A stretch of 11,292 nt of DNA from an uncultured Gaiellaceae bacterium (lineage in GTDB: Bacteria > Actinomycetota > Thermoleophilia > Gaiellales > Gaiellaceae), in assembly GCA_955652075.1 (NCBI GenBank), contig CATPAS010000009.1, positions 1 through 11,292 on the forward strand, in the 5' to 3' direction. This document shows positions 1 to 11,292 of this stretch, piece after piece. Under the pieces are notes generated by a model. That model saw nothing but the letters and a program-made list of their open reading frames with translations. It ran no database searches and was not told the DNA's origin. The position numbers and the translations under genes are program-made. Positions within the stretch are counted from its first letter, which is position 1; every line of letters starts with the position of its first letter.

Positions 1-36
1 ACAGCCCGTTCCCTTTGGCCACTCGGGCACACCCCC
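1..36 (-). tRNA. tRNA-Tyr(GUA), 5' half, cut by window edge
   Basis: Read on the minus strand from 36 to 1, the sequence begins GGGGGTG (acceptor strand), then T-G, a CCC D-stem strand, GAGTGGCCAAA (D-loop), GGG, A, the anticodon stem ACGGG and CTGT. The loop CTGTA with anticodon GTA is what the tRNA-Tyr pattern predicts. The window ends after the second anticodon base, so the third anticodon base, variable arm and 3' acceptor strand are not visible. The short CCC/GGG D-stem and D-loop match bacterial tRNA-Tyr. A class II tRNA-Ser or tRNA-Leu is the alternative, but CTGT at the anticodon loop favours Tyr. Confidence 0.88.
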
Positions 37-47
37 GGGGACGACGG

Positions 48-53
48 ATTGTA
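48..53 (-). promoter_or_regulatory. -10 box of the tRNA-Tyr gene
   Basis: TACAAT on the minus strand (53 to 48) lies 11 nt upstream of the tRNA first base, the distance expected for a housekeeping-sigma promoter that starts just before the mature 5' end. No convincing -35 hexamer is visible at 16-18 nt upstream. The same GCTACAA context appears in front of the duplicated tRNA half at 219-226. Confidence 0.5.
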
Positions 54-71
54 GCCGTGGCCTTAAAGACG

Positions 72-174
72 TTTCGCCGCCGCGCCGTGCTTTGCCCGTT
101 GTGGCTCGTCGCGCTGGTCGATAGGAGATCGCCAGAAAGTCATCATGGCCGCGAAGCGGCCGGGCTTTCAGGCG
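72..174 (-). repeat. Structured ~100-nt repeat, copy A
   Basis: This stretch is colinear with 10901-11004 (copy B). Shared blocks sit at equal offsets: TTTCGCCGC, TGCCCG, TAGGA and CATCATGGCCGCGAAGCGGCC-like sequence. Its right end folds into an extended hairpin: outer arms 130-141/163-174, a 5-nt ATCAT internal loop (142-146), then a perfect 6-bp stem GGCCGC/GCGGCC (147-152/156-161) around GAA. Outer-stem differences from copy B are compensatory at two pairs (see findings). The strand is uncertain; minus is chosen because copy A sits between two minus-strand tRNA-type promoters. It matches no RNA family I can name. It could be a small RNA, a terminator-like element or a DNA-level mobile repeat. 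Confidence 0.6.
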
Positions 175-180
175 TCGAGG

Positions 181-226
181 CCGTTCCTTTGGCCACTCGG
201 GCACGCCCCGGGGCGCGGCGTTGTAG
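181..226 (-). pseudogene. Degenerate duplicate of the tRNA-Tyr 5' half with its promoter
   Basis: On the minus strand, 209 to 181 reads GGGGC followed by GTGCCCGAGTGGCCAAAGG and AACGG. It matches the first ~32 nt of the tRNA-Tyr at 1-36 with few changes (acceptor positions, one G lost in the GGG D-stem). A -10-like TACAAC (225 to 220) keeps the GCTACAA context and the spacing of the tRNA-Tyr promoter. After AACGG the similarity to a tRNA ends: no tyrosine anticodon loop, T-arm or matching 3' acceptor strand follows, and the sequence instead runs into hairpin copy A. It is either a dead 5' fragment or a promoter plus tRNA-like head now making a chimeric small RNA. Confidence 0.7.
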
Positions 227-236
227 CTTTGGCGTC

Positions 237-1394
237 GTGGAGCGCTATGACGTCGCGATCGTCGGAGCAGGCCCGGCAGGCTCCACGGCTGCCTACCGCC
301 TCGCGCGCGCTCGCGCGCGCGTCTTACTAATAGACAAGGCACGCTTCCCCCGAGACAAGCCGTGCGGCGGCGGGCTCACGACGCGGGCTGTCCGCCAGTT
401 GCCCTTCTCCGTGGAGCCCGTCGTGGAAGACAGGATCACGCGTACGCGCTGTCGCCTGCGCTACGGGCCGAAGATCGAACGCCAATCGCCGCGGGTGCTC
501 TGTCTGATGACGCAGCGCCGGCGGCTCGACTCATTCCTCGTCGAGCAGGCAGTCGCCGCAGGGGCGGAGTTTCGCGACGGCGTCCATGTCACCATCGACT
601 CCGAGTCCGAGCTGCGTGTCGACGGCGAGCCGGTGGAAGTCGGCGCCTTGATAGGGGCCGACGGCGCGAACGGCATCACGGCTCGCACGCTCGGGCTCGG
701 CGGCGCGATCGTCAACGGCGTTGCGCTCGAGGGCAACCTCCCGTATGAGGAACTGCCGCCTGATGCGTGGCACGGACTGCTCGTGCTCGAGCTCGGCGTC
801 GTGCCTGGTGGCTACGGCTGGATCTTCCCGAAGGGCGAGCACGTGAACGTCGGCGTCGGCGGCTGGGCCCATCAAGGGCCGCAACTGCGCCGCCACCTGC
901 GAACCCTCTGCGAGCACTACGGCATCGACTCGCGCCAGTTGTCCGATCTGCGAGGCCATCGCCTCCCGATGCGGAGGCCTGGAACGGTGCTCGCGCGTGG
1001 CCGTGCGCTCGTGATCGGCGACGCTGCAGGCGCCATCGACCCGGTCTCCGGAGACGGCATCTACGAGGCGTTCGTCACGGCGCGCCTCGCCGCCGAGCAA
1101 ACGCTCGCGCTACTCGAGGGCGCGGCTGAGACGCTCGAGCCCTACGAGGCCGCGGTGAGGCGAGAGCTCGATCCGCTCGCATCGGCGGGGTGGAGCGCCA
1201 AGGTCGCGCTCGACCGCTACCCGCGCGCCGTCTTCGCCGTGATGCGGCTTCCGATCACCTGGCGGGTGATCGAAAAGCTCTTGCTAGGCGAGGTCTCCCA
1301 CCCGGGTGAGACCCGTGGGGCCAGCCGGCGGGCGATGCAGCTGATCGAGACTCTTGCCCGGCTGGCCCGCAGGCCGCGCGCAGCCGTCGCCTAA
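237..1394 (+). CDS. Geranylgeranyl reductase family FAD-dependent oxidoreductase
   Basis: A 385-residue flavoprotein of the geranylgeranyl reductase family (within the p-hydroxybenzoate hydroxylase fold), whose members reduce isoprenoid chains of lipids or quinones using FAD. Visible motifs are the N-terminal dinucleotide site DVAIVGAGPAG (residues 5-15), the family KPCGGGL segment (41-47), GADGANG near 140, and GDAAGAIDPVSGDG starting at residue 261, which contacts FAD. Length fits the family (about 380-420). The GTG start at 237 puts the Rossmann beta-strand at the N-terminus as usual. A longer in-frame reading from 15 would run through the tRNA region on the opposite strand and adds about 74 residues with no family resemblance. 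No Shine-Dalgarno is seen; TAGCTT at 224-229 could serve as the -10 of a leaderless transcript. The substrate is unknown. It is probably not functionally tied to the pilus genes downstream. Confidence 0.88.
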   Translation: MERYDVAIVGAGPAGSTAAYRLARARARVLLIDKARFPRDKPCGGGLTTRAVRQLPFSVEPVVEDRITRTRCRLRYGPKIERQSPRVLCLMTQRRRLDSFLVEQAVAAGAEFRDGVHVTIDSESELRVDGEPVEVGALIGADGANGITARTLGLGGAIVNGVALEGNLPYEELPPDAWHGLLVLELGVVPGGYGWIFPKGEHVNVGVGGWAHQGPQLRRHLRTLCEHYGIDSRQLSDLRGHRLPMRRPGTVLARGRALVIGDAAGAIDPVSGDGIYEAFVTARLAAEQTLALLEGAAETLEPYEAAVRRELDPLASAGWSAKVALDRYPRAVFAVMRLPITWRVIEKLLLGEVSHPGETRGASRRAMQLIETLARLARRPRAAVA

Positions 1395-1417
1395 AGCACC
1401 CTCAGACACCTGCCGAT
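1392..1417 (+). promoter_or_regulatory. FliA/WhiG-type promoter of pilT
   Basis: TAAA (1392-1395), 16 nt, GCCGAT (1412-1417). The -35 box overlaps the TAA stop of the reductase gene. The pattern matches the FliA/SigD/WhiG consensus (TAAA, about 15 nt, GCCGATAA/T). The -10 box covers the ATG at 1416, so that ATG cannot be the translation start; 1434 (or GTG 1425) must be. Confidence 0.72.
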
Positions 1418-1433
1418 GCCATGGGTGCCCGCC

Positions 1434-2663
1434 ATGGAGCTCAATCCCCTGCTCAGACGCGCCGTGGAACTCGGCGCCAGCGACATCCACCTGAAGGTCG
1501 GCCTACCGCCGATCCTTCGGCGCGACGGCGCGCTGAGCCCGCTCGAGGAGTCCGCGATCTTGATGGACAAGGACATGGACTCGCTGATCGAGACCGTAGG
1601 GAAGCGCTCGCCCGAACGCCTCGAAACCTTCAAGCAGACGGGCGACCTGGATATCGCCTACCAGGACGACGATCTCCCGCGGTTCCGCGTCAACGCGTTC
1701 AGGCAGCGCGGGCACATCTCGTTCGCCTTCCGCGTCATTCCGAAGAACGTCCCGAACTTCGAGACCCTCGGTTTGCCTGCGGGCATTCGCAGGCTCGCGG
1801 AGGAGCACCGCGGGCTCGTGCTGGTGACCGGCGCGACCGGCTCGGGTAAGTCGACGACGCTCGCCGCGATGGTCGACTACATCAATCGGACGCGGCAGCA
1901 GCACATCGTCACGATCGAGGACCCGATCGAGATCCTGCACAGCGACCACTCGTGCATCGTCAACCAGCGGGAGGTCGGGCTCGACACGCCGGACTTCATG
2001 CAGGCTCTGCGGCGCGCACTCCGCCAGGACCCCGACGTGATCCTGATCGGCGAGCTGCGGGACGCGGAAACGGCGCAAACGGCGCTGCAGGCAGCCGAAT
2101 CCGGCCACCTCGTTCTGTCGACGCTCCACACAGTCGATGCCGCCGAGACGATCGGCCGCATGGTCGAGTTCTTCCCCGAAGGCAAGCAGCAGATGATCCG
2201 ATCGATCATGGCGGGCGTCCTGCGCGGCGTCGTCAGTCAGCGCCTCCTGCCTCGCGTCGACGGCGGCCGGATCGCCGCCGTCGAGGTGATGGTGACCAAC
2301 ACCCGCATCGCCGACCTCATTCGCGACAACCAGCCCGAGTCGATCACAGACGCACTCGAAGACGGCTCGTTCTTCGACATGCAGTCCTTTACCAAGGCGC
2401 TCATCGATCTCGTCGTCTCGGGCAAGGTTGACCAGGAGGTCGCCGCGAACGCCGCCACGAACCGCCACGATTTCATGGTCACGCTCGATCATGCGCTGAA
2501 GCAGCAGAAGGCCGACGTCTCGGCGGCGGAAAGGCAAGCCAAAGCCGAGGAAAAGCAGGAGCGCGAGCCAGAACCAGAGCCAGAGCCCGAGCCAGAGCCC
2601 GAGCAAGTGTCAGAGCCAGAGCCAGAGCGCCCGACGCTCCGCCTCGCGCAAACCGGAGACTGA
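1434..2663 (+). CDS. pilT: Type IV pilus retraction ATPase PilT
   Basis: A 409-residue hexameric secretion-type ATPase predicted to power pilus retraction from the cytoplasmic side of the membrane. The N-terminus (MELNPLLRRAVELGASDIHLKVG) is the PilT PAS-like start. Walker A is GATGSGKS at residues 133-140, the Asp box lies around TIEDPIE, and Walker B is DVILIGELRD starting at D201, followed by the His box HLVLSTLHT. A PilT-specific C-terminal IADLIRD segment corresponds to the AIRNLIRE motif of retraction ATPases. The protein is longer than usual PilT (about 340-370) because of a charged tail ending in a Glu-Pro repeat. The start at 1434 is set by the promoter -10 box at 1412-1417, which excludes ATG 1416; GTG 1425 remains possible. 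The TGA stop overlaps the next gene's ATG (2663). PilU is the main alternative name. Confidence 0.93.
   Translation: MELNPLLRRAVELGASDIHLKVGLPPILRRDGALSPLEESAILMDKDMDSLIETVGKRSPERLETFKQTGDLDIAYQDDDLPRFRVNAFRQRGHISFAFRVIPKNVPNFETLGLPAGIRRLAEEHRGLVLVTGATGSGKSTTLAAMVDYINRTRQQHIVTIEDPIEILHSDHSCIVNQREVGLDTPDFMQALRRALRQDPDVILIGELRDAETAQTALQAAESGHLVLSTLHTVDAAETIGRMVEFFPEGKQQMIRSIMAGVLRGVVSQRLLPRVDGGRIAAVEVMVTNTRIADLIRDNQPESITDALEDGSFFDMQSFTKALIDLVVSGKVDQEVAANAATNRHDFMVTLDHALKQQKADVSAAERQAKAEEKQEREPEPEPEPEPEPEQVSEPEPERPTLRLAQTGD
2565..2628 (+). repeat. Glu-Pro hexanucleotide repeat in the pilT tail
   Basis: Repeats of a GAGCCN-type hexamer (GAGCCA/GAGCCC/GAACCA), interrupted once by CAAGTGTCA, encode an EP-rich tract from about residue 378 near the end of PilT. 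Such short-unit repeats are prone to slippage; because each unit is 6 nt, gains or losses keep the reading frame. A rigid acidic EP tail is not part of the PilT core fold. Confidence 0.85.
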
Positions 2664-4114
2664 TGCGCCTCCTCGGCGTTGCGGCCATCGGCCTCGCGTT
2701 GCTGGCGGGCTCCGCCCGGGCAGCGGGCCCGCCTGTGCTCGGCTTTTCCGTCTCCTCCGGCGCGCAGACCGGTCTCGTCCACGTCTCCATGCCCAGCGCT
2801 TCGATGCCGAATGCGCCGGGCGCGGTCTCGGTTCCTGTCACCTTCACGTCTCCGCCTGCGAGCCCGCAGCAGGTACCGCTCTCGACCCTTCACGTCATCT
2901 GGCAGCAGGCAGGGTCCGCCTACGGGATTCCCTGGCAGGTCCTCGCTGCGATCAACAAGGTCGAGTCCAACTTCGGCCAGAACATGGGGCCGAGCTCGGC
3001 CGGTGCAGTGGGCTGGATGCAGTTCATGCCCTCGACGTGGTTGCGCTGGGGCGTCGACGCGGACGGCAACGGGATCGCCGATCCCTGGAACGCCTCCGAC
3101 GCCATCTTCGCCGCCGCGCGCTATCTCGCGGCCGCCGGAGGGCAGACCGACATCTCGCGCGCCGTCTTCGCGTACAACCATGCGGACTGGTACGTCCGCG
3201 AGGTACTCGATCTCGCCAGGGTCTACGGCCAGGGCGGAATCACGCAGACCGCCGACCTGCAGCAGCTCCAGGCAACGCTCGACGGAGCGCGGCTCGAGGT
3301 CGTCCGCGCCAACGAGCAGCTCCTCGCCGCACAGGACTCCGAGCAGCAGTTGCGGAAGGTCGACCAGGGGTTGCACGCACAAGTGGACGCTGCGGCGTTG
3401 CTCTCGGATCGTCTGGCATCGGAGCGGCGCGCCGTTCTCTTCGACGTCAGCGTCGATGCGGCCCGCGCAGCCACCGACGCCGCACGCGTGAACCTCGAGC
3501 AGGCTCAGTCCTCCCTCGCGAGCGCGTCCCAGAGCGTCCAGGCCCCGTCATTCGCGCAGGGCGTCGGGACGCTGATGGGAGCGGCCTCCTTTCACGACAA
3601 CTACGTCTTTCCAGTAGGCGGTGGGCCGCAGATCGTCTCGGTCGCCCACACGCATCACGACTACCCCGCGGCCGACATCGCCGCGCCGGCCGGTTCGCCC
3701 GTGTACGCGATCTCGAACGCAGTCGTCCTCAACGCCTGGCATGCGGCCGACCCCAGCTGCGGCATCGGCATGACGATCCGCACGACGGACGGTCAGGTCT
3801 GGACGTACTGCCACCTCGCCTACCTCGATCCCGCCGTCATGGACGGCGTCTCCCTCGCAGCGGGGACTCAGATCGGTCTCGTCGGATCGACGGGCCATGC
3901 GACCGGGCCGCATCTCCATCTCCAGCTCCAACCAGCGGCGTCCTACCCACAGGATCAGCCCTGGTTCCAGAGCTTCGCGGGCATCGCGTTCCGCTGGCAG
4001 GACGCCCCGACGCCACTCGAACTGCCCAACGCCACGCCCCCTTCGGGGCGGGTCTTCTCCGTCGTCCCCAATTCGAGGGATGCCGTGATCGGCTTCACCA
4101 ATGGTGGGGCTTGA
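2663..4114 (+). CDS. Secreted lytic transglycosylase-M23 peptidase fusion
   Basis: A 483-residue exported peptidoglycan hydrolase with two catalytic domains. Residues 1-20 (MRLLGVAAIGLALLAGSARA) form a signal peptide. Residues about 75-190 are a lytic transglycosylase domain of the SLT/MltB type: INKVESNFG holds the likely catalytic Glu101, followed by AVGWMQFMPSTW and FAYNHADWYV. An Ala/Gln/Leu-rich coiled coil runs about 195-295. Residues about 315-430 are an M23 (LytM) metallopeptidase: HDYPAAD supplies His332 and Asp338, and HLH supplies His417/His419. All expected metal ligands are present, so activity is likely. The ATG overlaps the pilT stop codon and has GGAGA just upstream, implying translational coupling. 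Cutting both glycan strands and stem peptides suits opening the wall for a pilus machine; that role is inferred from position. Confidence 0.88.
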   Translation: MRLLGVAAIGLALLAGSARAAGPPVLGFSVSSGAQTGLVHVSMPSASMPNAPGAVSVPVTFTSPPASPQQVPLSTLHVIWQQAGSAYGIPWQVLAAINKVESNFGQNMGPSSAGAVGWMQFMPSTWLRWGVDADGNGIADPWNASDAIFAAARYLAAAGGQTDISRAVFAYNHADWYVREVLDLARVYGQGGITQTADLQQLQATLDGARLEVVRANEQLLAAQDSEQQLRKVDQGLHAQVDAAALLSDRLASERRAVLFDVSVDAARAATDAARVNLEQAQSSLASASQSVQAPSFAQGVGTLMGAASFHDNYVFPVGGGPQIVSVAHTHHDYPAADIAAPAGSPVYAISNAVVLNAWHAADPSCGIGMTIRTTDGQVWTYCHLAYLDPAVMDGVSLAAGTQIGLVGSTGHATGPHLHLQLQPAASYPQDQPWFQSFAGIAFRWQDAPTPLELPNATPPSGRVFSVVPNSRDAVIGFTNGGA

Positions 4115-4136
4115 GTCCACGCCGGTTTCTGCCGAT
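4111..4136 (+). promoter_or_regulatory. FliA/WhiG-type promoter of the PASTA/prepilin operon
   Basis: TTGA (4111-4114), 16 nt, GCCGAT (4131-4136). The -35 box overlaps the TGA stop of the hydrolase gene and is the most degenerate of the five; the -10 and the spacing are identical to the others. The ATG at 4146 begins 15 nt after the first base of GCCGAT, so the transcript is probably leaderless and reads into the prepilin genes. Confidence 0.62.
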
Positions 4137-4145
4137 TCGCGGAAC

Positions 4146-4982
4146 ATGGCTCTGCGGATAGCCACCCGCTTGCCGCGCCTTGCGATTGTGGGCGTGGTCC
4201 TGCTGCTCGCCAGCACGACTCTCGCCGTCGGCGCAGCGAAGCAGATGACGGCGGTCCCGCAAGGGGCTCCGGCACCGGTCCCCGTCCCCACACTGGTAGT
4301 CCCAGATCTGTCGGGCCAGGCGTTCGTGTTCGCCAAGGGGACGCTCGAAGACACCGGGTTCGCCTGGCAGGTCTTGGGCTCCGTGCACGGGTTCGCGGCA
4401 AACAAGGTCGCCCGCCAGTCGCCGCCTCCCGGCACGCGCGTTCGCGATACCGGTGCGCCGACCATCTCCGTCACTCTGACGCGGACGGCCTATCCGGAGA
4501 AGGGCAGTCCCGAGGACGTCTCACCGTATCTCGGCACGTCTGTCCAACCGATGGGTCTGCCGAGGATCCCTGTCGCGGCGCTTCCCGCAGCTCCCAAGGG
4601 AGCGCAGACGAAGCCCGCGCCGGCGAAGCCTGCAACGAAGAAGGCCGAGCCTAAGACTGCCGCTCCGACCAAGCGCCCACCCGCATTCGTCGTGGCCGGC
4701 GCACCGCGTGAACCGCTGAAGGAGATGCCCCTCACGCGGCGCGCTCAACTGCTGGCTGTGTGGGTCGCCGCGCATCCCTGGACGGCGGCGAACGTGCGTC
4801 ACTTCCTCTATCAGCACGCCTGGATCGTCACCGGCGCATCGTTCGGCTGGTGGCACGGAGCCGCAGCGCTCCGGGAGTTGATCGCCGCTGACCGAGTCGT
4901 GCAGCAGCGCTGGGGCATCGGCAAGCAGAACGAGCTGGTTGCCCGCCGAATGCTCGCGAACGTCGAGGCGAGAACTAAGTGA
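4146..4982 (+). CDS. Membrane-anchored PASTA-domain protein
   Basis: A 278-residue protein with one N-terminal hydrophobic segment (about residues 11-31, an uncleaved anchor or signal peptide). One PASTA-like domain follows at about 50-113 (VPDLSGQAF, then ARQSPPPGTRV and a closing SVTLT strand). Next come a disordered Ala/Lys/Pro linker (about 145-190) and an 80-residue Trp-rich helical C-terminal domain that I do not recognise. PASTA domains generally bind peptidoglycan stem peptides or each other outside the cell. Here there is no kinase or transpeptidase partner domain. The start is placed at 4146 because the sigma-type promoter ends at 4136; an in-frame ATG at 4101 lies inside the upstream gene and before the promoter. 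The gene's TGA overlaps the GTG of the next gene, so it is operonic with the prepilins. A plausible role is wall anchoring of the pilus machine, which is inference. Confidence 0.8.
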   Translation: MALRIATRLPRLAIVGVVLLLASTTLAVGAAKQMTAVPQGAPAPVPVPTLVVPDLSGQAFVFAKGTLEDTGFAWQVLGSVHGFAANKVARQSPPPGTRVRDTGAPTISVTLTRTAYPEKGSPEDVSPYLGTSVQPMGLPRIPVAALPAAPKGAQTKPAPAKPATKKAEPKTAAPTKRPPAFVVAGAPREPLKEMPLTRRAQLLAVWVAAHPWTAANVRHFLYQHAWIVTGASFGWWHGAAALRELIAADRVVQQRWGIGKQNELVARRMLANVEARTK

Positions 4983-5545
4983 TCAAACGTCGGCGCACGT
5001 TGTGCCTCAGGGGAGAAGCCGGCTTCAGCCTTGTCGAGAGCATTGTCGTGATGGCGATCCTCGCAACTGTCATGGGCAGCATCGGCGGCCTGTTCGCCGC
5101 GGGCTCCCGCGCGGAGATCGATGCGAACAGGCGCTTCCAGGCCCAGCAGGACGGGCGAGTCGCGCTCGACCGCATCCGGAAGGACATCCACTGCGCCAAG
5201 TCCGCCGCCGTAACGACGGTCGCCGGCAGCCCGACGACCTACATGGTGACGCTTACCATCCCTGCGGGCTGCGGAGGCGACATCAGCTGGTGCACCGTCT
5301 CCGTTGGCGGCTCGAGCACTCGGTTCGCGCTCTATCGACTGGGAGGCTCGTCCTGCAGCAGCGCAGGGCTCCGCACAGCGGACTACCTGATCTCCGCGAA
5401 CGCCTTTCCGACGTACACGACGCAATCGACCTCGTCGCTCGCGTCTCTGGCGGTCGACTTTCAGATCAGCATGCGCGGATCCTCGAGTCTCGATGCGTAC
5501 GAGCTCAAGGACACCATCTACCTCCGAAACAGCACAAGGACATGA
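4979..5545 (+). CDS. Class III minor prepilin (PilV/PilW/PulG-like)
   Basis: A 188-residue type IV prepilin. The leader MIKRRRTLCLRGEAG is basic and ends in Gly15; cleavage before Phe16 would leave FSLVESIVVMAILATVMGS, with the conserved Glu at mature position 5 and a hydrophobic helix. PilD, encoded downstream, should cleave and N-methylate it. The C-terminal globular part contains several cysteines (two in IPAGCGGDISWC, one in SSCSS) that may form disulphides. The length and sequence are like minor pilins that prime the fibre tip rather than a major pilin. The GTG start overlaps the stop of the PASTA gene, and its own TGA is followed within a few bases by the next gene, so all three are co-translated. 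Confidence 0.85.
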   Translation: MIKRRRTLCLRGEAGFSLVESIVVMAILATVMGSIGGLFAAGSRAEIDANRRFQAQQDGRVALDRIRKDIHCAKSAAVTTVAGSPTTYMVTLTIPAGCGGDISWCTVSVGGSSTRFALYRLGGSSCSSAGLRTADYLISANAFPTYTTQSTSSLASLAVDFQISMRGSSSLDAYELKDTIYLRNSTRT

Positions 5546-5547
5546 CC

Positions 5548-6984
5548 ATGGTCAAGTTTTCGCGGCGCCTACGTGCCGAATTTGGACAGGCGCTGCCGCT
5601 GGCTCTCGGCGTCTCGGTCGCGCTCATGATGACGATCACGACGGTGGTGGAGTACACGTCGTCCAACTCCCGCTGGTCCAGTTACTCACGCGCCAACGTC
5701 TCTGCCTACTCGCTCGCCGAAGCGGGGATGAACGACGCGCGTTCCGTTCTCTGGAAGGCGTTGAATCCGCGCGACGGGACCTCCGTGCCGCAGACCACAG
5801 TCACGCTCGATGGCGGCACGGCGACGTTCTCCGGAGTCTATGACGATCCCACCTCGACCTGGACCCTCACCTCCACCGGGAGCGTGCGCAATCCGAACGG
5901 CACGGCGAACCGCGCTGTCACGCGGACGATCAACAGCAAGGTCCGTGTCTCCACGGCTTCGATCAGCGGGGCAGACGATGTGATCTGGAACTACCTTTAT
6001 ACGGACGCACCAACGGGAACGTGCATGAACCTGGCGAACAACTCGGTCATCAGCACTCCGCTGTATGTGCGCGGCGACCTGTGCATGGGCAACAACTCCT
6101 CGATCACGGGTGGGGTGACCACGGTCCTTCAGGTGGGAGGCTCGCTCACCATCGGCAACGGAGGCACGACAGTGGGCACCGCCGCGAACAAGGTGAACCA
6201 GGTGAAGGTGGGCCTCGGCTGCACCGGAGGCAATCCGAACCCTCACCCCTGCACGACCGCGGACAAGGTGTACGCAACGAACTATTCGTCGACCACGTCC
6301 GGCCTGACCAAGCCGCCGATCGACCTCGCCACGTGGTACCAGAACTCCTACCCCGGGCCGAAGCACAACTGCGGCACCGGCAGCTTCCCGGGCGGGTTCG
6401 ACACCGACACCTTGCAGAACAACAGTCGGGGCGCGGTCAACCTCACCCCCGCTTCGGCGTACGACTGCCGCGTGCTGGACGGAATGGGGAACATCATCGG
6501 CAGGATCTCGTGGACCCCCGGGAACCCCAAGGGAACGCTGACCGTGAACGGGACGATGTTCTTCGACGGGCCGATCAGCTACAGCGGCTCTGCCGTTTAC
6601 AGCGGCCGCGCGACGATCTACTCCTCCGGCACGATCAGCTTCGGCATCGGTGCCACTCTCTGCGGCGTCGCGGCCTGTGACACGACCTGGGACTCCACGT
6701 CGAACCTGCTCGTCCTGGTCTCTGGATCCAATGCCCAGAGTCCCAGCTGTGCGTTCACGCTCGGGAACAACTCGGTCTTCCAGGGGGCGACGATGATGGG
6801 GGGCGACTACTGTGAGAACAACAACGCCGGCACCTGGGGCGCGGTTATCGCGCATCAGCTCTTCATCTCGAACAACGCGATCAACCACTACGTCCCGTTC
6901 GGCACGCTCCTCCCCGGCCAGCCTGCAGCCGGTGGCACTGCGACGACCCTGGTGAACGAGAGCGACTCGTACGTCGCGGGCTAG
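5548..6984 (+). CDS. Large PilX-like pilin-associated protein
   Basis: A 478-residue protein with a short basic N-terminus, then FGQALPLALGVSVALMM (hydrophobic helix from residue 12), then SLAEAGMNDAR, the pattern of PilX-family minor pilins. It has Gly13 at the place of a prepilin cleavage site but no Glu at mature position 5, so PilD processing is uncertain. The remaining ~400 residues are Asn/Gly/Thr/Ser-rich, with repeated short beta-strand stretches (LYVRGDLCMGNNSSIT, SLTIGNGGTTVG) and about ten cysteines, suggesting a secreted beta-helix-like adhesive or tip domain. Two starts compete: ATG 5542 overlaps the prepilin stop (ATGA), while AAGGA at 5536-5540 is correctly spaced (7 nt) for ATG 5548, which I prefer. 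No closer family can be assigned by eye. Confidence 0.75.
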   Translation: MVKFSRRLRAEFGQALPLALGVSVALMMTITTVVEYTSSNSRWSSYSRANVSAYSLAEAGMNDARSVLWKALNPRDGTSVPQTTVTLDGGTATFSGVYDDPTSTWTLTSTGSVRNPNGTANRAVTRTINSKVRVSTASISGADDVIWNYLYTDAPTGTCMNLANNSVISTPLYVRGDLCMGNNSSITGGVTTVLQVGGSLTIGNGGTTVGTAANKVNQVKVGLGCTGGNPNPHPCTTADKVYATNYSSTTSGLTKPPIDLATWYQNSYPGPKHNCGTGSFPGGFDTDTLQNNSRGAVNLTPASAYDCRVLDGMGNIIGRISWTPGNPKGTLTVNGTMFFDGPISYSGSAVYSGRATIYSSGTISFGIGATLCGVAACDTTWDSTSNLLVLVSGSNAQSPSCAFTLGNNSVFQGATMMGGDYCENNNAGTWGAVIAHQLFISNNAINHYVPFGTLLPGQPAAGGTATTLVNESDSYVAG

Positions 6985-6993
6985 CGGCATCCC

Positions 6994-7019
6994 TCAACTC
7001 AGGGACAGCAACTGCCGAT
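6994..7019 (+). promoter_or_regulatory. FliA/WhiG-type promoter of pilD
   Basis: TCAA (6994-6997), 16 nt, GCCGAT (7014-7019), extended to GCCGATAT, which equals the SigD -10 consensus. It lies in the 44-nt gap between the PilX-like gene and pilD. The ATG at 7029 starts 15 nt after the first base of the -10, predicting a leaderless pilD mRNA. Confidence 0.78.
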
Positions 7020-7028
7020 ATCGAGGAC

Positions 7029-7778
7029 ATGGATTTCGCTCTCGCCGCCGTCTTCTTCGCGCCCGGACTCGCGCTCGGTAGCTTCCTGAACGTCGTCGCT
7101 GCGCGCGTGCCGCTGCGGCGGTCGATCGTGCGGCCGCCTTCTGCCTGCATGTCCTGCTCGCAGGAGATCCGCTGGTACGACAACGTTCCGCTGTTGTCCT
7201 ACTTCCTGCTTCGGGGCCGCTGCCGCCACTGCCAGGCGCGTATCCCGGTCGTGTATCCGGCCGTCGAGCTCGCGACCGCGCTGCTCCTCGCCGGCTGCGT
7301 GCTCGCGTTCGGGCTCACTGCGAGGGCCGCGGTCTCCGCCTTGTTCTGCGCCGTGCTGGTTGCCGTCTCGGCGATCGATCTCGAGCACCGCATCATCCCC
7401 AACCGCATCGTCCTCCCTGCGACGGTCGTCGTGCTCGTCGCGAACACCGCGCGCGATCTCAGCCCTGAATGGGCGCTCGCCGCGCTCGCGGGCTCGGGCT
7501 TCCTGTTCGCGGCGGCGCTGGCCTATCCCGCCGGGATGGGGATGGGCGACGTGAAGCTGGCCCTCCTGATGGGCGCCGCCCTGGGGCGGACGGTCCCGGT
7601 CGCTCTGATGGTCGGGATGCTGGCCGCGCTGGTGCCCAGCGTCGTGCTGCTCGTCCGACACGGCTCGAAGGCGCGCAAGATGGGGATCCCGTTCGGCCCG
7701 TTCCTCGCGATTGGCTCGGTCGTCGCCATCTTCTGGGGCCACGACATCCTGCACGCGTACTTCTCGACGCTGCGTTAG
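7029..7778 (+). CDS. pilD: Prepilin peptidase / N-methyltransferase PilD
   Basis: A 249-residue polytopic membrane aspartyl protease that removes class III leaders from prepilins and methylates the new N-terminus. The N-terminal GSFLNVVAARVP block and the two zinc-type cysteine pairs, Cys40/Cys43 and Cys65/Cys68, mark the methylase domain. The catalytic aspartates are Asp117 in AIDLEHRIIPN and Asp174 in GMGMGDVK. About eight hydrophobic segments are visible. Length and motif order are standard for a bifunctional PilD/GspO. It is transcribed alone from its own sigma-type promoter. Its TAG stop overlaps the TAA stop of the convergent membrane gene. Its likely substrate within the window is the prepilin at 4979-5545, and possibly the PilX-like protein. 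Confidence 0.94.
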   Translation: MDFALAAVFFAPGLALGSFLNVVAARVPLRRSIVRPPSACMSCSQEIRWYDNVPLLSYFLLRGRCRHCQARIPVVYPAVELATALLLAGCVLAFGLTARAAVSALFCAVLVAVSAIDLEHRIIPNRIVLPATVVVLVANTARDLSPEWALAALAGSGFLFAAALAYPAGMGMGDVKLALLMGAALGRTVPVALMVGMLAALVPSVVLLVRHGSKARKMGIPFGPFLAIGSVVAIFWGHDILHAYFSTLR

Positions 7779-8728
7779 CTCTGCGGGCCCAGGGCTCGCC
7801 CGAGCCGACTTGCGGGGAGCCGAGTTGGCAATTCTCCGAGGACCAGTCCGGCGCCTGTGAGGACGAGCGCTTCTACTTCGAGCCAGTACCACCCGAAGGA
7901 AACAGGATCGAGCGCGAGACGAACGAGCGCGACTGCGAGCGGCACGAGCCACAACGAGTGCACGCTGCGGCGCAGCGCAAACGCGATGACCGCGCCTGCA
8001 CCGATCGCCAGCGAGGCCTGCGCGAGCCTTAGCGGCCAGCCGAAGTGAGCGCCGGGACCGACGAGGAGCCCGACCAGCGTCCCCGACGTCACGCGCCATT
8101 CGTGGTCGAACATGCGGAACGTGCCGAGCAGCGCGAACGGCACGAGCATCACCCCGATGACGGCCGCCTGCGCGCACGCGCCGGCGAGTGCGTCCGTCAC
8201 TCTCGGAGCCAGCAGCAGCACCACCACGCCCAGCACACCCCACAGCTCGAAACCGACGGACAGACCTACCAGGGCTCCCGCGCTCAAGACTCGACCTTCA
8301 CGTGCCCAGAGGCCGGCGAGCACCCAGAGCAAGGGAACGATCGCCTCGGCCGGATGGCCATAGACGAACGCGATGTGAGTCAACCCCGCGGCCACGGCCA
8401 CCAGCCCGACTGCGAGCCGCGCCCGGTCGGAGAGCCCGAGCCGGCCGAGCACGAACAGGAGTAGCGCCGCGACGCCCAGTTCGATCAGGAACGCGAGCGC
8501 GGCCAGGTTGGGCACGGCGCCGAAGACCGCCAGCTGCAAGGGGCCCGACTGCAGCTGCGGGTCGGCGAAGGTGTTCGCCCAGCCACCTGAGAGCAGCTGC
8601 TGGCCCTTGTGGACGAAGTAGACGAGGTCGCCTGAGTCCGTCCCTCGATCGAGGTACGCGAGGCCCGCCGTCGGTGCCAGGACGGGTACCCAGAGCCGGG
8701 CGAGCGGCGAACGCAGGAAGTCCCTCAC
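7775..8728 (-). CDS. Polytopic membrane protein, possible GT-C-type glycosyltransferase
   Basis: A 317-residue very hydrophobic protein with about eight or nine membrane segments. Near the N-terminus it has GTDSGDLVYFVHKGQQLL and, shortly after, FADPQLQSGPLQL: a D..YF..G pattern followed by an extracytoplasmic loop, as seen in polyprenyl-phosphate-dependent mannosyltransferase-like (GT-C/DUF2029) proteins. It lacks the length of a full GT-C enzyme (usually above 380), so this is a weak guess. The GTG start at 8728 lies 16 nt from the first base of a FliA/WhiG-type -10 box, which supports the start and places the gene in the pilus regulon. It is divergent from pilB and convergent with pilD, with stops overlapping by 4 nt. 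Pilin glycosylation would fit but is not shown. Confidence 0.72.
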   Translation of the reverse strand: MRDFLRSPLARLWVPVLAPTAGLAYLDRGTDSGDLVYFVHKGQQLLSGGWANTFADPQLQSGPLQLAVFGAVPNLAALAFLIELGVAALLLFVLGRLGLSDRARLAVGLVAVAAGLTHIAFVYGHPAEAIVPLLWVLAGLWAREGRVLSAGALVGLSVGFELWGVLGVVVLLLAPRVTDALAGACAQAAVIGVMLVPFALLGTFRMFDHEWRVTSGTLVGLLVGPGAHFGWPLRLAQASLAIGAGAVIAFALRRSVHSLWLVPLAVALVRLALDPVSFGWYWLEVEALVLTGAGLVLGELPTRLPASRLGRALGPQS

Positions 8729-8738
8729 CTAGGGCGAT

Positions 8739-8764
8739 ATCGGCCTCTGGACGGGTGAGGTTGA
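8739..8764 (-). promoter_or_regulatory. FliA/WhiG-type promoter of the divergent membrane gene
   Basis: On the minus strand: TCAA (8764-8761), 16 nt, GCCGAT (8744-8739), extended to GCCGATAT. The GTG start at 8728 is 10 nt past the -10 box, so the mRNA is probably leaderless. Its -35 box is only 11 bp from the -35 box of the pilB promoter on the other strand. Confidence 0.78.
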
Positions 8765-8775
8765 GGGAGCCGGGA

Positions 8776-8801
8776 TCAAGGGACGGGCGGCTCCTGCCGA
8801 T
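8776..8801 (+). promoter_or_regulatory. FliA/WhiG-type promoter of pilB
   Basis: TCAA (8776-8779), 16 nt, GCCGAT (8796-8801), followed by AC. It is back-to-back with the promoter of the minus-strand membrane gene. The pilB ATG at 8820 leaves a short leader of roughly 9-10 nt that carries GAGGG (8811-8815), so here, unlike pilD, a Shine-Dalgarno is available. Confidence 0.76.
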
Positions 8802-8819
8802 ACCTCGAACGAGGGATAT

Positions 8820-10619
8820 ATGGACACCGAACGCCCACGGAATCTGCGTAGTCCTGGCACCGAGACCGGACCTGCGGCGACGCCTGGTGGCGGGGGCCTC
8901 GGAGGGGCCCCGCCGCCGATCAACGCGCTCGCCGAGATCGTCGCGGACCTGATCGCCGCCACGGGCCTGGTTCCAGCGGACAAGCTTGCCATGGTCCGGA
9001 GCGCGGCCGGGATGGGCTCCTTTGCGCACGCCCTCGTGGAGCAGAACGTCGCTTCCAGCGAGGGGCTTGCCCGCACCCTCGCGGCCCGCTACCAGATGCC
9101 CCTCATCGATCTGGCATTGACAGGCGTCACCGAAGAGGCGACCGGCCAGATCGCTCTCCACGTGCTCGAGCGTCTGGTCGCGATTCCGTACGCGATCGAG
9201 GACGGAACGCTCAAGGTCGCCGTTGGCGACCCGGGCAACATCCAGGGAATCGACGAGCTCCGCCTCGCGACGCGCTACCCGCTCGAAATCGGCGTGGCCG
9301 CCCGCGACGACATCTTCGTCGAGATCCGCCGCCTTGCTCGCGCCTCTGAGGCGTTCGGCGCCCGCGCCGCTGCTGCTGAAGGCGAACTCGCGCTGGTCGA
9401 GGAAGAGGAGGAAACCGACGACCTCGAGGTCGACGACGGCATCTCGGATGCGCCCCTCGTTCGTCTCGTCAACTCCGTGATCTTCCAGGCCGCCGAGGAC
9501 GGGGCCTCTGACGTCCACTTCGAGCCCCAGGAGGACGCGCTGCTGGTCCGCTTCCGCGTAGACGGCGTGCTGCACGAGGTGCAGCGGATTCCGAAGCGCA
9601 TGATGCCCGGCGTCCTCACCCGACTGAAGGTGCTCGCAAAGCTCGACATCGCCGAGCGGCGCAAGCCGCAAGACGGCCGCATCTCACTCAACGCGGCAGC
9701 CGCTGGCCGAACCCTGGACGTCCGCGTCGCAACGCTCCCGACGGTCGAGGGCGAGTCGATCGTCATGCGTCTTCTGGACAAGTCCAAGAAGGCGCCGACC
9801 CTCCAGGAGCTGGGCATGTCCGACGAGATGCGGGGGGCGCTGGAAACCTTGATCCGCAAGCCCACGGGCGCTCTCCTCGTCACCGGACCCACGGGCTCCG
9901 GTAAGTCGACGACGCTGTATGCGGCGCTGACCGAGATCAACCGGCCCGAGATCAACATCATCACGGTGGAGGATCCGGTCGAGTACCGCCTCTCGGGCGT
10001 CAACCAGGTGCAGATCAACCAGAAGGCCGGCCTCACGTTCGCGACAGCACTGCGATCGATCCTGCGTTCCGACCCCGACGTGGTGATGGTCGGTGAGATC
10101 CGGGACGGCGAGACCGCCAAGATCTCGATCGAGGCTGCTCTCACGGGCCACCTCGTCCTGTCGACGCTGCATACGAACGATGCGCCTCAGGCTCTGACGC
10201 GTCTGGGTGAGATGGGCGTGGAACCATTTCTGATCGGCGCTGCAGTCTCGGCCGTGCTCGCCCAGCGGCTGGCCCGCAAGCTCTGCACGCACTGCTGTGA
10301 GATGTACACGCCGTCCGTCGACGAGCTGATGAAGGCGCGAGTTTCCCGCGAGGTGGCCGCCGCCAGCGACGGGATGGTCTTCTACCGCAAGAAGGGCTGT
10401 CCCAGGTGCAACCAGTCCGGCTACAAGGGCCGGATCGGCGTCTTCCAGCTGCTGACCATGAGCGAGCAGCTCGAGAGCCTCGCCGTCACGAAAGCAAGCC
10501 GCGAAGACATCGAGCGCGCCGCGATCGGCGAAGGCATGCGAACCCTGTGGGACGACGGCCTGGCCAAGGTCGCCGCGGGCCTGACGTCCATCGAAGAGCT
10601 CGCGCGCGTCTCCATCTGA
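8820..10619 (+). CDS. pilB: Type IV pilus extension ATPase PilB
   Basis: A 599-residue GspE/PilB-type ATPase that drives pilin polymerisation. Residues about 1-40 are Gly/Pro-rich and probably disordered. About 40-145 is a T2SSE N-terminal domain (LARTLAARYQMPLIDL, then ALHVLERLVAIPYAIEDGTLKVAVGDP), related to the c-di-GMP-binding MshE N-domain, though binding cannot be judged here. An acidic linker (EEEETDDLEVDDG) precedes the ATPase core, with Walker A GPTGSGKS at 356-363, Asp-box TVEDPVEYR, Walker B DPDVVMVGEIRD and His-box HLVLSTLHT. The PilB-type zinc site has Cys489/Cys492 and Cys527/Cys530. GAGGG sits 4 nt before the ATG. No pilC follows, although it often does. The last 39 codons are duplicated on the minus strand at the window's right end. 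Confidence 0.95.
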   Translation: MDTERPRNLRSPGTETGPAATPGGGGLGGAPPPINALAEIVADLIAATGLVPADKLAMVRSAAGMGSFAHALVEQNVASSEGLARTLAARYQMPLIDLALTGVTEEATGQIALHVLERLVAIPYAIEDGTLKVAVGDPGNIQGIDELRLATRYPLEIGVAARDDIFVEIRRLARASEAFGARAAAAEGELALVEEEEETDDLEVDDGISDAPLVRLVNSVIFQAAEDGASDVHFEPQEDALLVRFRVDGVLHEVQRIPKRMMPGVLTRLKVLAKLDIAERRKPQDGRISLNAAAAGRTLDVRVATLPTVEGESIVMRLLDKSKKAPTLQELGMSDEMRGALETLIRKPTGALLVTGPTGSGKSTTLYAALTEINRPEINIITVEDPVEYRLSGVNQVQINQKAGLTFATALRSILRSDPDVVMVGEIRDGETAKISIEAALTGHLVLSTLHTNDAPQALTRLGEMGVEPFLIGAAVSAVLAQRLARKLCTHCCEMYTPSVDELMKARVSREVAAASDGMVFYRKKGCPRCNQSGYKGRIGVFQLLTMSEQLESLAVTKASREDIERAAIGEGMRTLWDDGLAKVAAGLTSIEELARVSI

Positions 10620-10763
10620 GGCGGAGGAAGATTCGAGCCCAGCCGCGCGTCTGGCGAGTGGGATGGGAGGACCTGCGGGGCGTATCTCTTTCAAGACATA
10701 TGGCGTTGAAGCCATATGACGCGGTCCCTCATGCTCATCTCCGCATGCCTGCTGATCGTGCTC
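10500..10763 (+). repeat. Large inverted repeat, left arm
   Basis: This 264-nt arm is the reverse complement of 11029-11292, with no net length difference; both may continue further (the right arm is cut by the window edge). It covers the last 39 pilB codons (one base change in 119, plus a different stop codon), a poorly conserved stretch of about 35 nt after the stop, then a second well-conserved block to 10763 (about six differences in 108). Identity ends inside the small-peptide ORF, after codon 16. Confidence 0.93.
10697..10718. repeat. Short palindrome at the small-peptide start, left copy
   Basis: Perfect 8-bp arms CATATGGC/GCCATATG around GTTGAA. The last three bases are the ATG of the small-peptide ORF, so an RNA hairpin here would sequester that start. 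It also contains TCAA (10691-10694), 16 nt, GCCATA, a near-match to the pilus promoters. Operator, recombination site, RNA hairpin and degenerate promoter are all possible. Confidence 0.6.
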
Positions 10764-10895
10764 ACCATGGCAGCCGGGGCCGCCCCGGCGAAGCGGGCAG
10801 ATGCGTGCACCTGGGGCGCCTCCTCAGTGGTCGTAGAACAGGTCAACGGCCAGTACGTCGAGAGCGATCCGAACACAACGGGCTGCATCCCGTAA
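10716..10895 (+). CDS. Small secreted peptide, 59 aa
   Basis: A 59-residue ORF beginning MTRSLMLISACLLIVL, a basic residue followed by a hydrophobic core, and a likely signal-peptidase I site around AAGAAPA or KRADA. A mature part of about 30-35 residues would contain two cysteines (ACTW and TGCIP) that could pair. Comparison with the inverted copy at 11076-11005 shows that both base changes within the shared N-terminal codons fall at third positions of this frame, supporting it over the overlapping frame from 10700. No strong Shine-Dalgarno is present; ATG 10731 is an alternative start in frame. It lies 96 nt after pilB. I recognise no family. A tip-associated or signalling peptide is speculation. 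Confidence 0.5.
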   Translation: MTRSLMLISACLLIVLTMAAGAAPAKRADACTWGASSVVVEQVNGQYVESDPNTTGCIP

Positions 10896-10900
10896 CAGCT

Positions 10901-11004
10901 TTTCGCCGCGGAGGCGGGCTGTGCCCGACTCCGCCACCAACGCCCTCCGTTAGGACGCGCGGCGGAAAATCATCATGGCCGCGAAGCGGCCCGATTTTCC
11001 GCCG
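10901..11004 (-). repeat. Structured ~100-nt repeat, copy B
   Basis: This is colinear with copy A (72-174) and occupies the gap between the two convergent small-peptide ORFs. The extended hairpin has 12-bp perfect outer arms (10960-10971/10993-11004), the same ATCAT internal loop (10972-10976), and the identical inner stem GGCCGC/GCGGCC (10977-10982/10986-10991) with loop GAA. The outer arms differ from copy A but stay paired. The hairpin ends directly against the TAA of the minus-strand peptide, so it could act as its terminator, though no T-run follows. Orientation matches copy A; the strand is uncertain. Confidence 0.6.
10908..10934 (+). terminator. Possible terminator hairpin after the 59-aa ORF
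   Basis: Arms GCGGAG/CTCCGC (10908-10913/10929-10934) enclose an inner GGGC/GCCC stem with a TGT loop. It begins 12 nt after the stop of the 59-aa ORF. No U-tract follows, so intrinsic termination is uncertain. It lies inside repeat copy B. Confidence 0.35.
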
Positions 11005-11076
11005 TTACTGCGCGTGTACGTCACAGCCGAGCACCATCAGCAGGCACGCGGAGATGAGCATGAGGGACCGCGTCAT
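11005..11076 (-). CDS. Tiny secreted peptide, 23 aa, possible lipopeptide
   Basis: This minus-strand ORF shares MTRSLMLISACLL with the 59-aa peptide, then diverges to MVLGCDVHAQ and stops. MVLGC resembles a lipobox (hydrophobic residues followed by Gly-Cys), so a lipid-modified exported hexapeptide is conceivable; equally it may be a truncated relic. The start sits in the same palindrome as the 59-aa ORF. It follows the second pilB by 96 nt, the same spacing as on the other side. Its TAA abuts the hairpin of repeat copy B. Confidence 0.4.
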   Translation of the reverse strand: MTRSLMLISACLLMVLGCDVHAQ

Positions 11077-11095
11077 ATGGCTTCAACGCCATATG
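11074..11095. repeat. Short palindrome at the small-peptide start, right copy
   Basis: The same 8-bp-arm palindrome as at 10697-10718, unchanged. On the minus strand it ends with the ATG of the 23-aa ORF. Confidence 0.6.
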
Positions 11096-11172
11096 GCTTG
11101 AAAGAGATACGCGCCGCTCGTCCTCCCATCCCACCTCGAGACGGGCGCTCCCCCTGGAATCTTCCGTGCCTC

Positions 11173-11292
11173 TTAGATGGAGACGCGCGCGAGCTCTTCG
11201 ATGGACGTCAGGCCCGCGGCCACCTTGGCCAGGCCGTCGTCCCACAGGGTTCGCATGCCTTCGCCGATCGCGGCGCGCTCGATGTCTTCGCG
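11173..11292 (-). CDS. pilB: Second pilB copy, C-terminal 39 codons, cut by window edge
   Basis: The 39 visible residues (from REDIERAAIGEGM to EELARVSI) are identical to the C-terminus of the PilB encoded at 8820-10619. The DNA differs by one synonymous change (a Val codon) and by the stop codon (TAA instead of TGA). The gene runs convergently toward the first pilB, and the stops are about 550 nt apart. Whether a full second pilB exists beyond the edge, or only a duplicated tail, cannot be told. Near-perfect coding identity beside a diverged spacer suggests recent gene conversion or strong constraint. Confidence 0.85.
   Translation of the reverse strand, partial: REDIERAAIGEGMRTLWDDGLAKVAAGLTSIEELARVSI

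Follow-up and report, generated by a model that had tools for sequence, protein, structure and literature searches.

Candidate WhiG-type promoters with a 16-nucleotide spacer in a type IV pilus locus of an uncultured Gaiellaceae bacterium

A switch that connects the flagellar-type sigma factor WhiG, the anti-sigma factor RsiG and type IV pili is already published for Rubrobacter radiotolerans (PMC8325347). Here, we report what is probably the same switch in another actinobacterial lineage, starting from an 11,292-nucleotide (nt) stretch of DNA of an uncultured Gaiellaceae bacterium (contig CATPAS010000009.1 of assembly GCA_955652075.1, positions 1 to 11,292; hereafter the window). Five sites of the form TNAA or TTGA, 16 nt, GCCGAT stand ahead of genes of a type IV pilus locus, and we consider it likely (probability about 0.82) that they are promoters of the only WhiG-type sigma factor detected in the genome, that they drive the pilus locus, and that RsiG and cyclic di-GMP (c-di-GMP) control them. 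The sites, their conservation, WhiG, an RsiG with an intact ligand motif and the lack of any FlhA or FlgM match are direct observations. Below, G000 is the window's own genome, other G numbers are relatives, L numbers are loci, C numbers are contigs, and N16 denotes a spacer of 16 nt.

Promoter sites and their conservation

The five sites are as follows.

1392..1417, plus strand: P1, TAAA-N16-GCCGAT, putatively serving pilT and a lytic transglycosylase/M23 peptidase (LT/M23) gene
4111..4136, plus strand: P2, TTGA-N16-GCCGAT
6994..7019, plus strand: P3, TCAA-N16-GCCGATA, ahead of pilD
8739..8764, minus strand: P4, TCAA-N16-GCCGATA, divergent from P5
8776..8801, plus strand: P5, TCAA-N16-GCCGATA, then ACCTCGAACGAGGGATATATG (a short leader with GAGG), ahead of pilB

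The original prediction had placed all five sites at these coordinates with exactly 16 nt between the boxes, and the window sequence bears this out in each case: TNRA-N16-GCCGAT occurs six times against 0.21 expected (mean of 200 dinucleotide shuffles; largest shuffle 2). The sixth match (1014-1039, minus strand, TCGA) lies in the FAD-dependent reductase-like gene and seems accidental. GCCGAT alone is common, two-fold enriched in the window (26 versus 12.7), and the box by itself is therefore uninformative. The two bases that follow it are GC at pilT, TC at the PASTA gene, AT at pilD, AC at pilB and AT at the minus-strand gene, so that three of the five sites read GCCGATA and none reads GCCGATAA. 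Both the P1 and the P2 -35 box contain a stop codon of the preceding gene, TAA of the reductase gene in P1 and TGA of the LT/M23 gene in the TTGA of P2, an overlap that may account for the TTGA; L076, L082 and L088 have TCAA at the P2 position, where such an overlap is impossible.

We compared the sites across relatives, 41 of 81 genomes having a PilB match at E 1e-100 or better. The set comprised 21 loci, namely stretches from 20 of these 41 genomes plus L040, from the metagenome-assembled genome Actinobacteria bacterium isolate AC_26 (perhaps the same species as G008, with an identical pilD site; its genes differ from the G008 stretch). A site was counted if TNRA-N15..17-GCCGAT lay between -130 and +40 of a predicted start; pilT and pilB matches below 48% identity (paralogues) and starts fewer than 110 bases from a locus end were excluded beforehand. 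Sites were present at 40 of 65 orthologous first-gene starts and at 0 of 41 other starts, loci of one genus not being independent in this count. They stand ahead of pilT in 11 of 13 relatives, the PASTA gene in 8 of 10, the minus-strand membrane-protein gene in 5 of 6, pilD in 8 of 16 (the L073 site is probably chance and the L082 site doubtful) and pilB in 8 of 20. L088 has a ninth pilB site, which escaped the count as the pilB match there is truncated. Of the 11 other loci without a pilB site, 10 have pilB close behind pilD on the same strand. No site was found ahead of the reductase (0/4), the wall enzyme (0/9), the pilin (0/14) or pilX (0/14). Single-letter shuffles of the stretches gave at most 0.045 expected sites per gene set. 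Spacing was predicted to be an invariant 16 nt; this is true inside the window and slightly too strict among relatives, where 37 of the 40 sites are N16 and three N17. The spacer letters vary while the sites stay at orthologous starts, and the cross-relative comparison says that the sites should be promoters.

Genome-wide, the strict form TMAA-N10..22-GCCGATA matches 12 times in G000, eight of them at N16; two of the eight, on C171 and C348, share the same sequence close to contig ends and could belong to a single locus. In G026, a single contig, seven of nine strict matches are N16, three of them in the pilus stretch. Among the fully listed genomes of a set of 27, strict matches fall at N16 in 54 of 69 cases in six genomes with WhiG as the one such sigma factor and no FlhA, versus 8 of 26 in eight genomes without WhiG, all of one genus (Fisher p 2.8e-5); that genus has a ninth genome without any match, G056, and G013 and G020 are outside the count. 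A reversed-pattern control is not taken as evidence because the reversed box differs in make-up. The expectation that the motif concentrates at gene starts therefore stands for the strict form, which clusters at N16 and before starts, and fails for the loose form discussed below.

The distance to the start codon is also patterned. We surveyed 134 distinct TMAA-N16-GCCGATW sites from all loci and the window for the longest open reading frame (ORF) of at least 60 amino acids (aa) starting within about 60 nt. In 36 cases the start lies 10 nt past GCCGAT, in nine it lies 11 nt past, and 23 sites have none; a second peak at 19 nt (10 cases) is of the pilB type with GAGG. At N15 sites, starts at 10-11 nt occur in 11 of 50. 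The shape of the peak rather than its size is the evidence, sites often being orthologous and loci chosen by motif. The transcription start of E. coli aer lies 6 bp past the -10 octamer (PMC2859248), so a start codon at 10 nt would correspond to a leader of about 0-2 nt, which suggests nearly leaderless mRNAs from these promoters.

WhiG, RsiG and competing explanations

The prediction that a FliA/WhiG-family sigma factor is encoded holds: G000:C104:503-1180 matches TIGR02479 at 287.7 bits (curated cut-off 189.6), the nearest solved sequence being 6pfj (279 bits). So does the prediction of an RsiG homologue, an 80-aa ORF in L175 that matches PF22802 at 76.1 bits (cut-off 27) and is of the single-motif form. 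Its motif, ENEVSYQRRLLHGKID, satisfies the c-di-GMP signature E(X)3S(X)2R(X)3[Q/H](X)3D and is intact. A motif scan of a set of loci gave one match, inside a wall enzyme, and no RsiG.

PF22802 is found in 63 of 81 genomes and in 0 of 14 controls, and FliA/WhiG (E 1e-50) in 58 of 81. Of the 39 genomes with a completeness of 90% or more, 34 have RsiG and 34 have WhiG, the same 34 when the tables are read together, and all 23 with PilB are among these. RsiG alone occurs in seven genomes and WhiG alone in two, all less than 90% complete. Every PilB genome has RsiG (41/41), and three have no WhiG match (G006, G021, G028; 78-85% complete). The strict RsiG motif is present in all 30 loci L090-L119 (the window's own genome included) and in 18 of the 20 loci L206-L225, the other two being G061 fragments at contig ends. 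FlhA (TIGR01398), present in 14 of 81 genomes, was not found in G000 (72% complete) or in nine genomes of the same genus; with no flagellar export genes detected, the organism is apparently flagellum-less. FlgM was not found in G000, and its model gave one marginal match in 81 genomes and stayed silent in flagellated relatives as well; it may be blind in this lineage, and its silence says little.

Several observations weigh against WhiG promoters under RsiG control. The loose TNAA-Nx-GCCGAT motif is not enriched at N16 in G000 (25 matches at N16, 23 at N15, 7 at N17, 12 at N18, 0 at N14), and the eight WhiG-negative genomes show a mild N16 excess of their own (8/26, p 0.025). Two WhiG-positive genomes with a second sigma factor, outside the six, reach N16 in 5 of 8 (G018) and 7 of 15 (G044) matches. 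In G079, from another family of the class and with WhiG, RsiG and PilB present, the count is only 5 of 21, which speaks against a general N16 rule for the class. For half of the pilD orthologues and most of the pilB ones, the count includes no site. At P1 and P2 no A follows GCCGAT, and the FliA consensus of E. coli is one base shorter (N15); these two points qualify the predicted FliA/WhiG-type assignment, which is otherwise supported by boxes resembling TAAA and GCCGATAA (TNAA/TTGA and GCCGATN variants included) at near-fixed spacing ahead of gene starts. Of the 34 complete genomes with WhiG and RsiG, 11 have no PilB at E 1e-100, and pili are therefore not the sole target. Finally, at 72% completeness the assembly could hide a second FliA-like sigma factor, flagellar genes or another anti-sigma factor.

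The most serious competitor accepts WhiG promoters and takes the pili out of RsiG and c-di-GMP control, WhiG being restrained through its expression level or a different anti-sigma factor. RsiG-WhiG binding is here a prediction from sequence, and the 11 genomes that keep both proteins without PilB suit this alternative. So does the lack of any TNAA-N14..18-GCCGAT match on the whiG contig (C104) or the rsiG contig (C230), by which no feedback loop is evident via their own promoters. We nevertheless hold it to be unlikely, if by no means negligible, given the identical distribution of the two proteins in the 34 genomes, the intact motif in 30 of 30 loci and the binding of related single-motif RsiG-WhiG pairs (PMC8325347). 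That a different sigma factor with a similar consensus, for instance a stress sigma, reads the sites appears improbable: G000 does contain four further sigma matches at 98-116 bits and four fragments below 27 bits, and the boxes deviate from TAAA and GCCGATAA, yet these two boxes are the flagellar-clade consensus (PMC8325347, PMC2859248), one G000 sigma factor only exceeds the FliA/WhiG cut-off, and N16 clustering is strong in the six WhiG-positive genomes and weak in the eight WhiG-negative ones. Least credible of all, with hardly any chance of being right, is that the motif is a by-product of GC-rich sequence and codon use. GCCGAT is common and the loose motif equally frequent at N15; however, sites persist at orthologous starts with changed spacer letters and at 0 of 41 other starts, and start codons peak 10 nt downstream. 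The footprint count argues against chance for the whole set; an individual site, for example the one in L073, may still have arisen by chance.

Under RsiG-controlled WhiG promoters, and by analogy with Rubrobacter, an RsiG homodimer with two c-di-GMP molecules would hold WhiG at high c-di-GMP; a drop in c-di-GMP would free WhiG, and the pilus operons would be transcribed. Freed WhiG may feed back on c-di-GMP, because an HD-GYP-type gene and another HD-domain gene also have WhiG-type sites ahead of them. We infer that WhiG reads the sites, that RsiG binds WhiG, which way control runs and where transcription starts; binding of both c-di-GMP and WhiG by the G000 RsiG is likewise predicted.

Pilus genes, further targets and spacer length

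With pilB, pilT, pilD and a prepilin all present, the window contains a type IV pilus locus, whose genes are listed below.

Upstream of pilT, stop codon inside the P1 -35 box: FAD-dependent reductase-like gene
1434..2663, plus strand: pilT-like ATPase (T2SSE; PF00437, 167.7 bits, scanned from 1416)
2663..4114, plus strand: cell-wall enzyme, lytic transglycosylase and M23 peptidase (PF13406, PF01551)
4146..4982, plus strand: PASTA-domain membrane protein (PF03793, 28.8 bits), ATG 10 nt past GCCGAT
4979..5545, plus strand: pilin-like protein with N-terminal methylation motif (PF07963, 24.2 bits)
5545..6984, plus strand: PilX-like minor-pilin candidate, no Pfam match, named from position and architecture only
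7029..7778, plus strand: pilD prepilin peptidase (PF06750, PF01478), ATG 10 nt past GCCGAT
7775..8728, minus strand: membrane protein, no Pfam match, glycosyltransferase-like by eye, GTG 11 nt past GCCGAT
8820..10619, plus strand: pilB assembly ATPase (PF00437, 450.7 bits) with MshEN domain (PF05157, 47.7 bits)

The pilT start is ATG 1434 or possibly GTG 1425, the frame being open from ATG 1416. The LT/M23 start overlaps the pilT stop, making a common transcript likely, and gene overlaps likewise suggest that P1 likely serves pilT and the wall enzyme and P2 the PASTA gene, the pilin and the next gene, the PilX-like candidate, which is weakly conserved among relatives. A gene for the platform protein PilC does not lie within the window, which stops after pilB; in G026 a PilC-like (T2SSF) gene with an N16 site lies less than 7 kb from pilB. 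G000 has a second PilB-like ATPase (G000:C361:6906-8372, 50% identity).

Two features lie at the window's edges. At 10500-11292 the contig end folds back and repeats the end of pilB (arms 10500-10620 and 11172-11292, 98% complementary; 10658-10763 and 11029-11134, 94%), either an assembly artefact or a real palindrome. A 35-nt sequence occurs twice as a direct repeat, at 12-46 and 186-220 (86%); to the eye it looks like a piece of a tRNA-Ser read backwards, and ARAGORN reported no tRNA.

Other G000 genes with an N16 site ahead of them encode a further PilT-like ATPase (C339), a large protein without a Pfam match (C171/C348) and two HD proteins, one being an HD_5 protein of the HD-GYP type (C219, 125.1 bits) and the other an HD-domain protein truncated at a contig end (C335). 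The five pilus sites together with the HD_5 and HD-domain sites make up a putative regulon like that of Rubrobacter. Another N16 site lies 11 nt ahead of a 52-aa cysteine-rich ORF (C240, L371), with similar sites in G008 and G009, and one stands ahead of a gene on C54 that is cut off and, by resemblance, probably encodes a sigma-70 factor; look-alikes in G026 and G038 match sigma-70 regions 1.2 to 4. Many remaining sites, inside long open frames, look like chance. WhiG-type sites also precede sigma-70 genes in four genomes (L013, L151, L344, and L233 with N15; L013 and L233 judged by eye), and a cascade from WhiG to sigma-70 is possible. In relatives, sites stand ahead of GGDEF, EAL or HD_5 genes (L279, L287, L304 with N15, L317, L345 with N16). 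Downstream of pilB, L071:4987-5589 and L078:12440-13027 encode proteins of 201 and 196 aa without a Pfam match, each with an N16 site 10 nt ahead of its start.

Spacers were counted in nine further genomes, and the downstream-gene survey covers 89 chosen sites, a part of the total. In five genomes of the family labelled f2, taken here as two-sigma, N15:N16 is 31:49; in three f3 genomes with flagella it is 4:32 (Fisher p 0.0023). The f3 genomes have one WhiG each or, in G074 (70% complete), none found. The f2 label has gaps: in G058 the second sigma factor is just below cut-off, in G061 (82% complete) none was found, and no FlhA was detected in G049 and G058; leaving out G061 gives 24:40 versus 4:32 (p 0.005). 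G040, with two sigma factors and FlhA, has 3:3. Genes that follow N15 sites include flagellin in G052, G058 and (judged by eye) G061, an FlgE/F/G-like gene in G052, FlhB in G038 and FliJ in G061, along with non-flagellar genes. N16 sites lie ahead of FlhB in G050 and (judged by eye) in G064, of an FlgE/F/G-like gene in G050, and of Tad genes (CpaB/RcpC-like, TadE) in f2 (L324, L333 and L339 checked with Pfam; L321, L334, L342 and L350 by eye). In a sigma tree, eight second sigma factors fall on one side of a branch (support 78/73; long-branch warnings). We tentatively raise the possibility that, as a tendency, spacer length insulates two flagellar-type regulons in two-sigma relatives, N15 flagellar and N16 pilus-type (type IV or Tad), WhiG-only relatives using N16 almost throughout, flagellar genes mostly included. 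An absolute spacer code is rejected: apparent orthologues of one aminotransferase-like protein have N15 in G049 and N16 in G052, G061 and G050 (by eye), and the FlgE/F/G-like gene has N16 in G050 and N15 in G064 (the latter by eye).

RsiG itself varies within the window's own order or family. In G038, G050, G064 and G074, two PF22802 matches share one frame of 174-231 aa (twin-motif; L206, L209, L210, L211), the final D of the second motif being replaced by E in G074. In the RsiG tree the two halves of the G038 protein group with single-motif forms from its family (support 89/89, not starred), and the f3 halves split into two distinct groups; this suggests separate duplications, in a tree of few columns and long branches. 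In L207 and L208 of G038, longer frames terminate in RsiG-like motifs; the upstream part of the L208 frame looks doubtful, and this locus, about 4 kb from flhA, is a possible candidate anti-sigma factor for the flagellar sigma.

Relation to known sigma factor switches

The link between RsiG, WhiG and type IV pili in Rubrobacter that the original prediction cites agrees with PMC8325347, which describes 12 predicted WhiG promoters with mapped transcription starts, three of them in the pilus cluster, and five single-motif RsiG forms from Rubrobacteria and Thermoleophilia. Its evidence consists of promoter matches and start-site mapping, with no mutant pilus phenotype in the sections covered. Our system shares with R. 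radiotolerans a single-motif RsiG, a WhiG-type sigma factor, flagellar-type promoters in the pilus cluster and c-di-GMP enzyme genes as predicted targets. It differs in having five promoters in one 7.4-kb stretch instead of three in the cluster, in predicted targets among which are a second pilT, the LT/M23 and PASTA module and probably a sigma-70 gene, and in that the transcription starts, mapped there, are predicted here.

The boxes TAAA and GCCGAT recall E. coli FliA (sigma-28) promoters, whose consensus is TAAAGTTT-n11-GCCGATAA, that is, TAAA-N15-GCCGATAA (PMC2859248); the spacer here is N16, and neither the flagellar export gene nor FlgM was found. Streptomyces uses the same sigma and anti-sigma families, with a twin-motif monomeric RsiG and sporulation targets in contrast to the single-motif RsiG and pili here (PMC8325347); a Streptomyces phosphodiesterase antagonises RsiG (PMC13232838). 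A flagellar-type sigma factor also drives the zoospore pili of Actinoplanes missouriensis (as cited in PMC8325347), where, unlike here, the zoospores are flagellated and the genus has no RsiG (per PMC8325347). Among the matches listed in a search of open-licence literature, we recognised no paper extending the switch to this lineage.

These results suggest that pilus control by WhiG and RsiG extends beyond Rubrobacter and is common in a second actinobacterial lineage, one known mostly from draft genomes. The promoter rule of N16 with a start codon about 10 nt downstream may allow regulons to be predicted in genomes of unculturable organisms, and comparing relatives with flagella, Tad or type IV pili may indicate which machine the switch first controlled.

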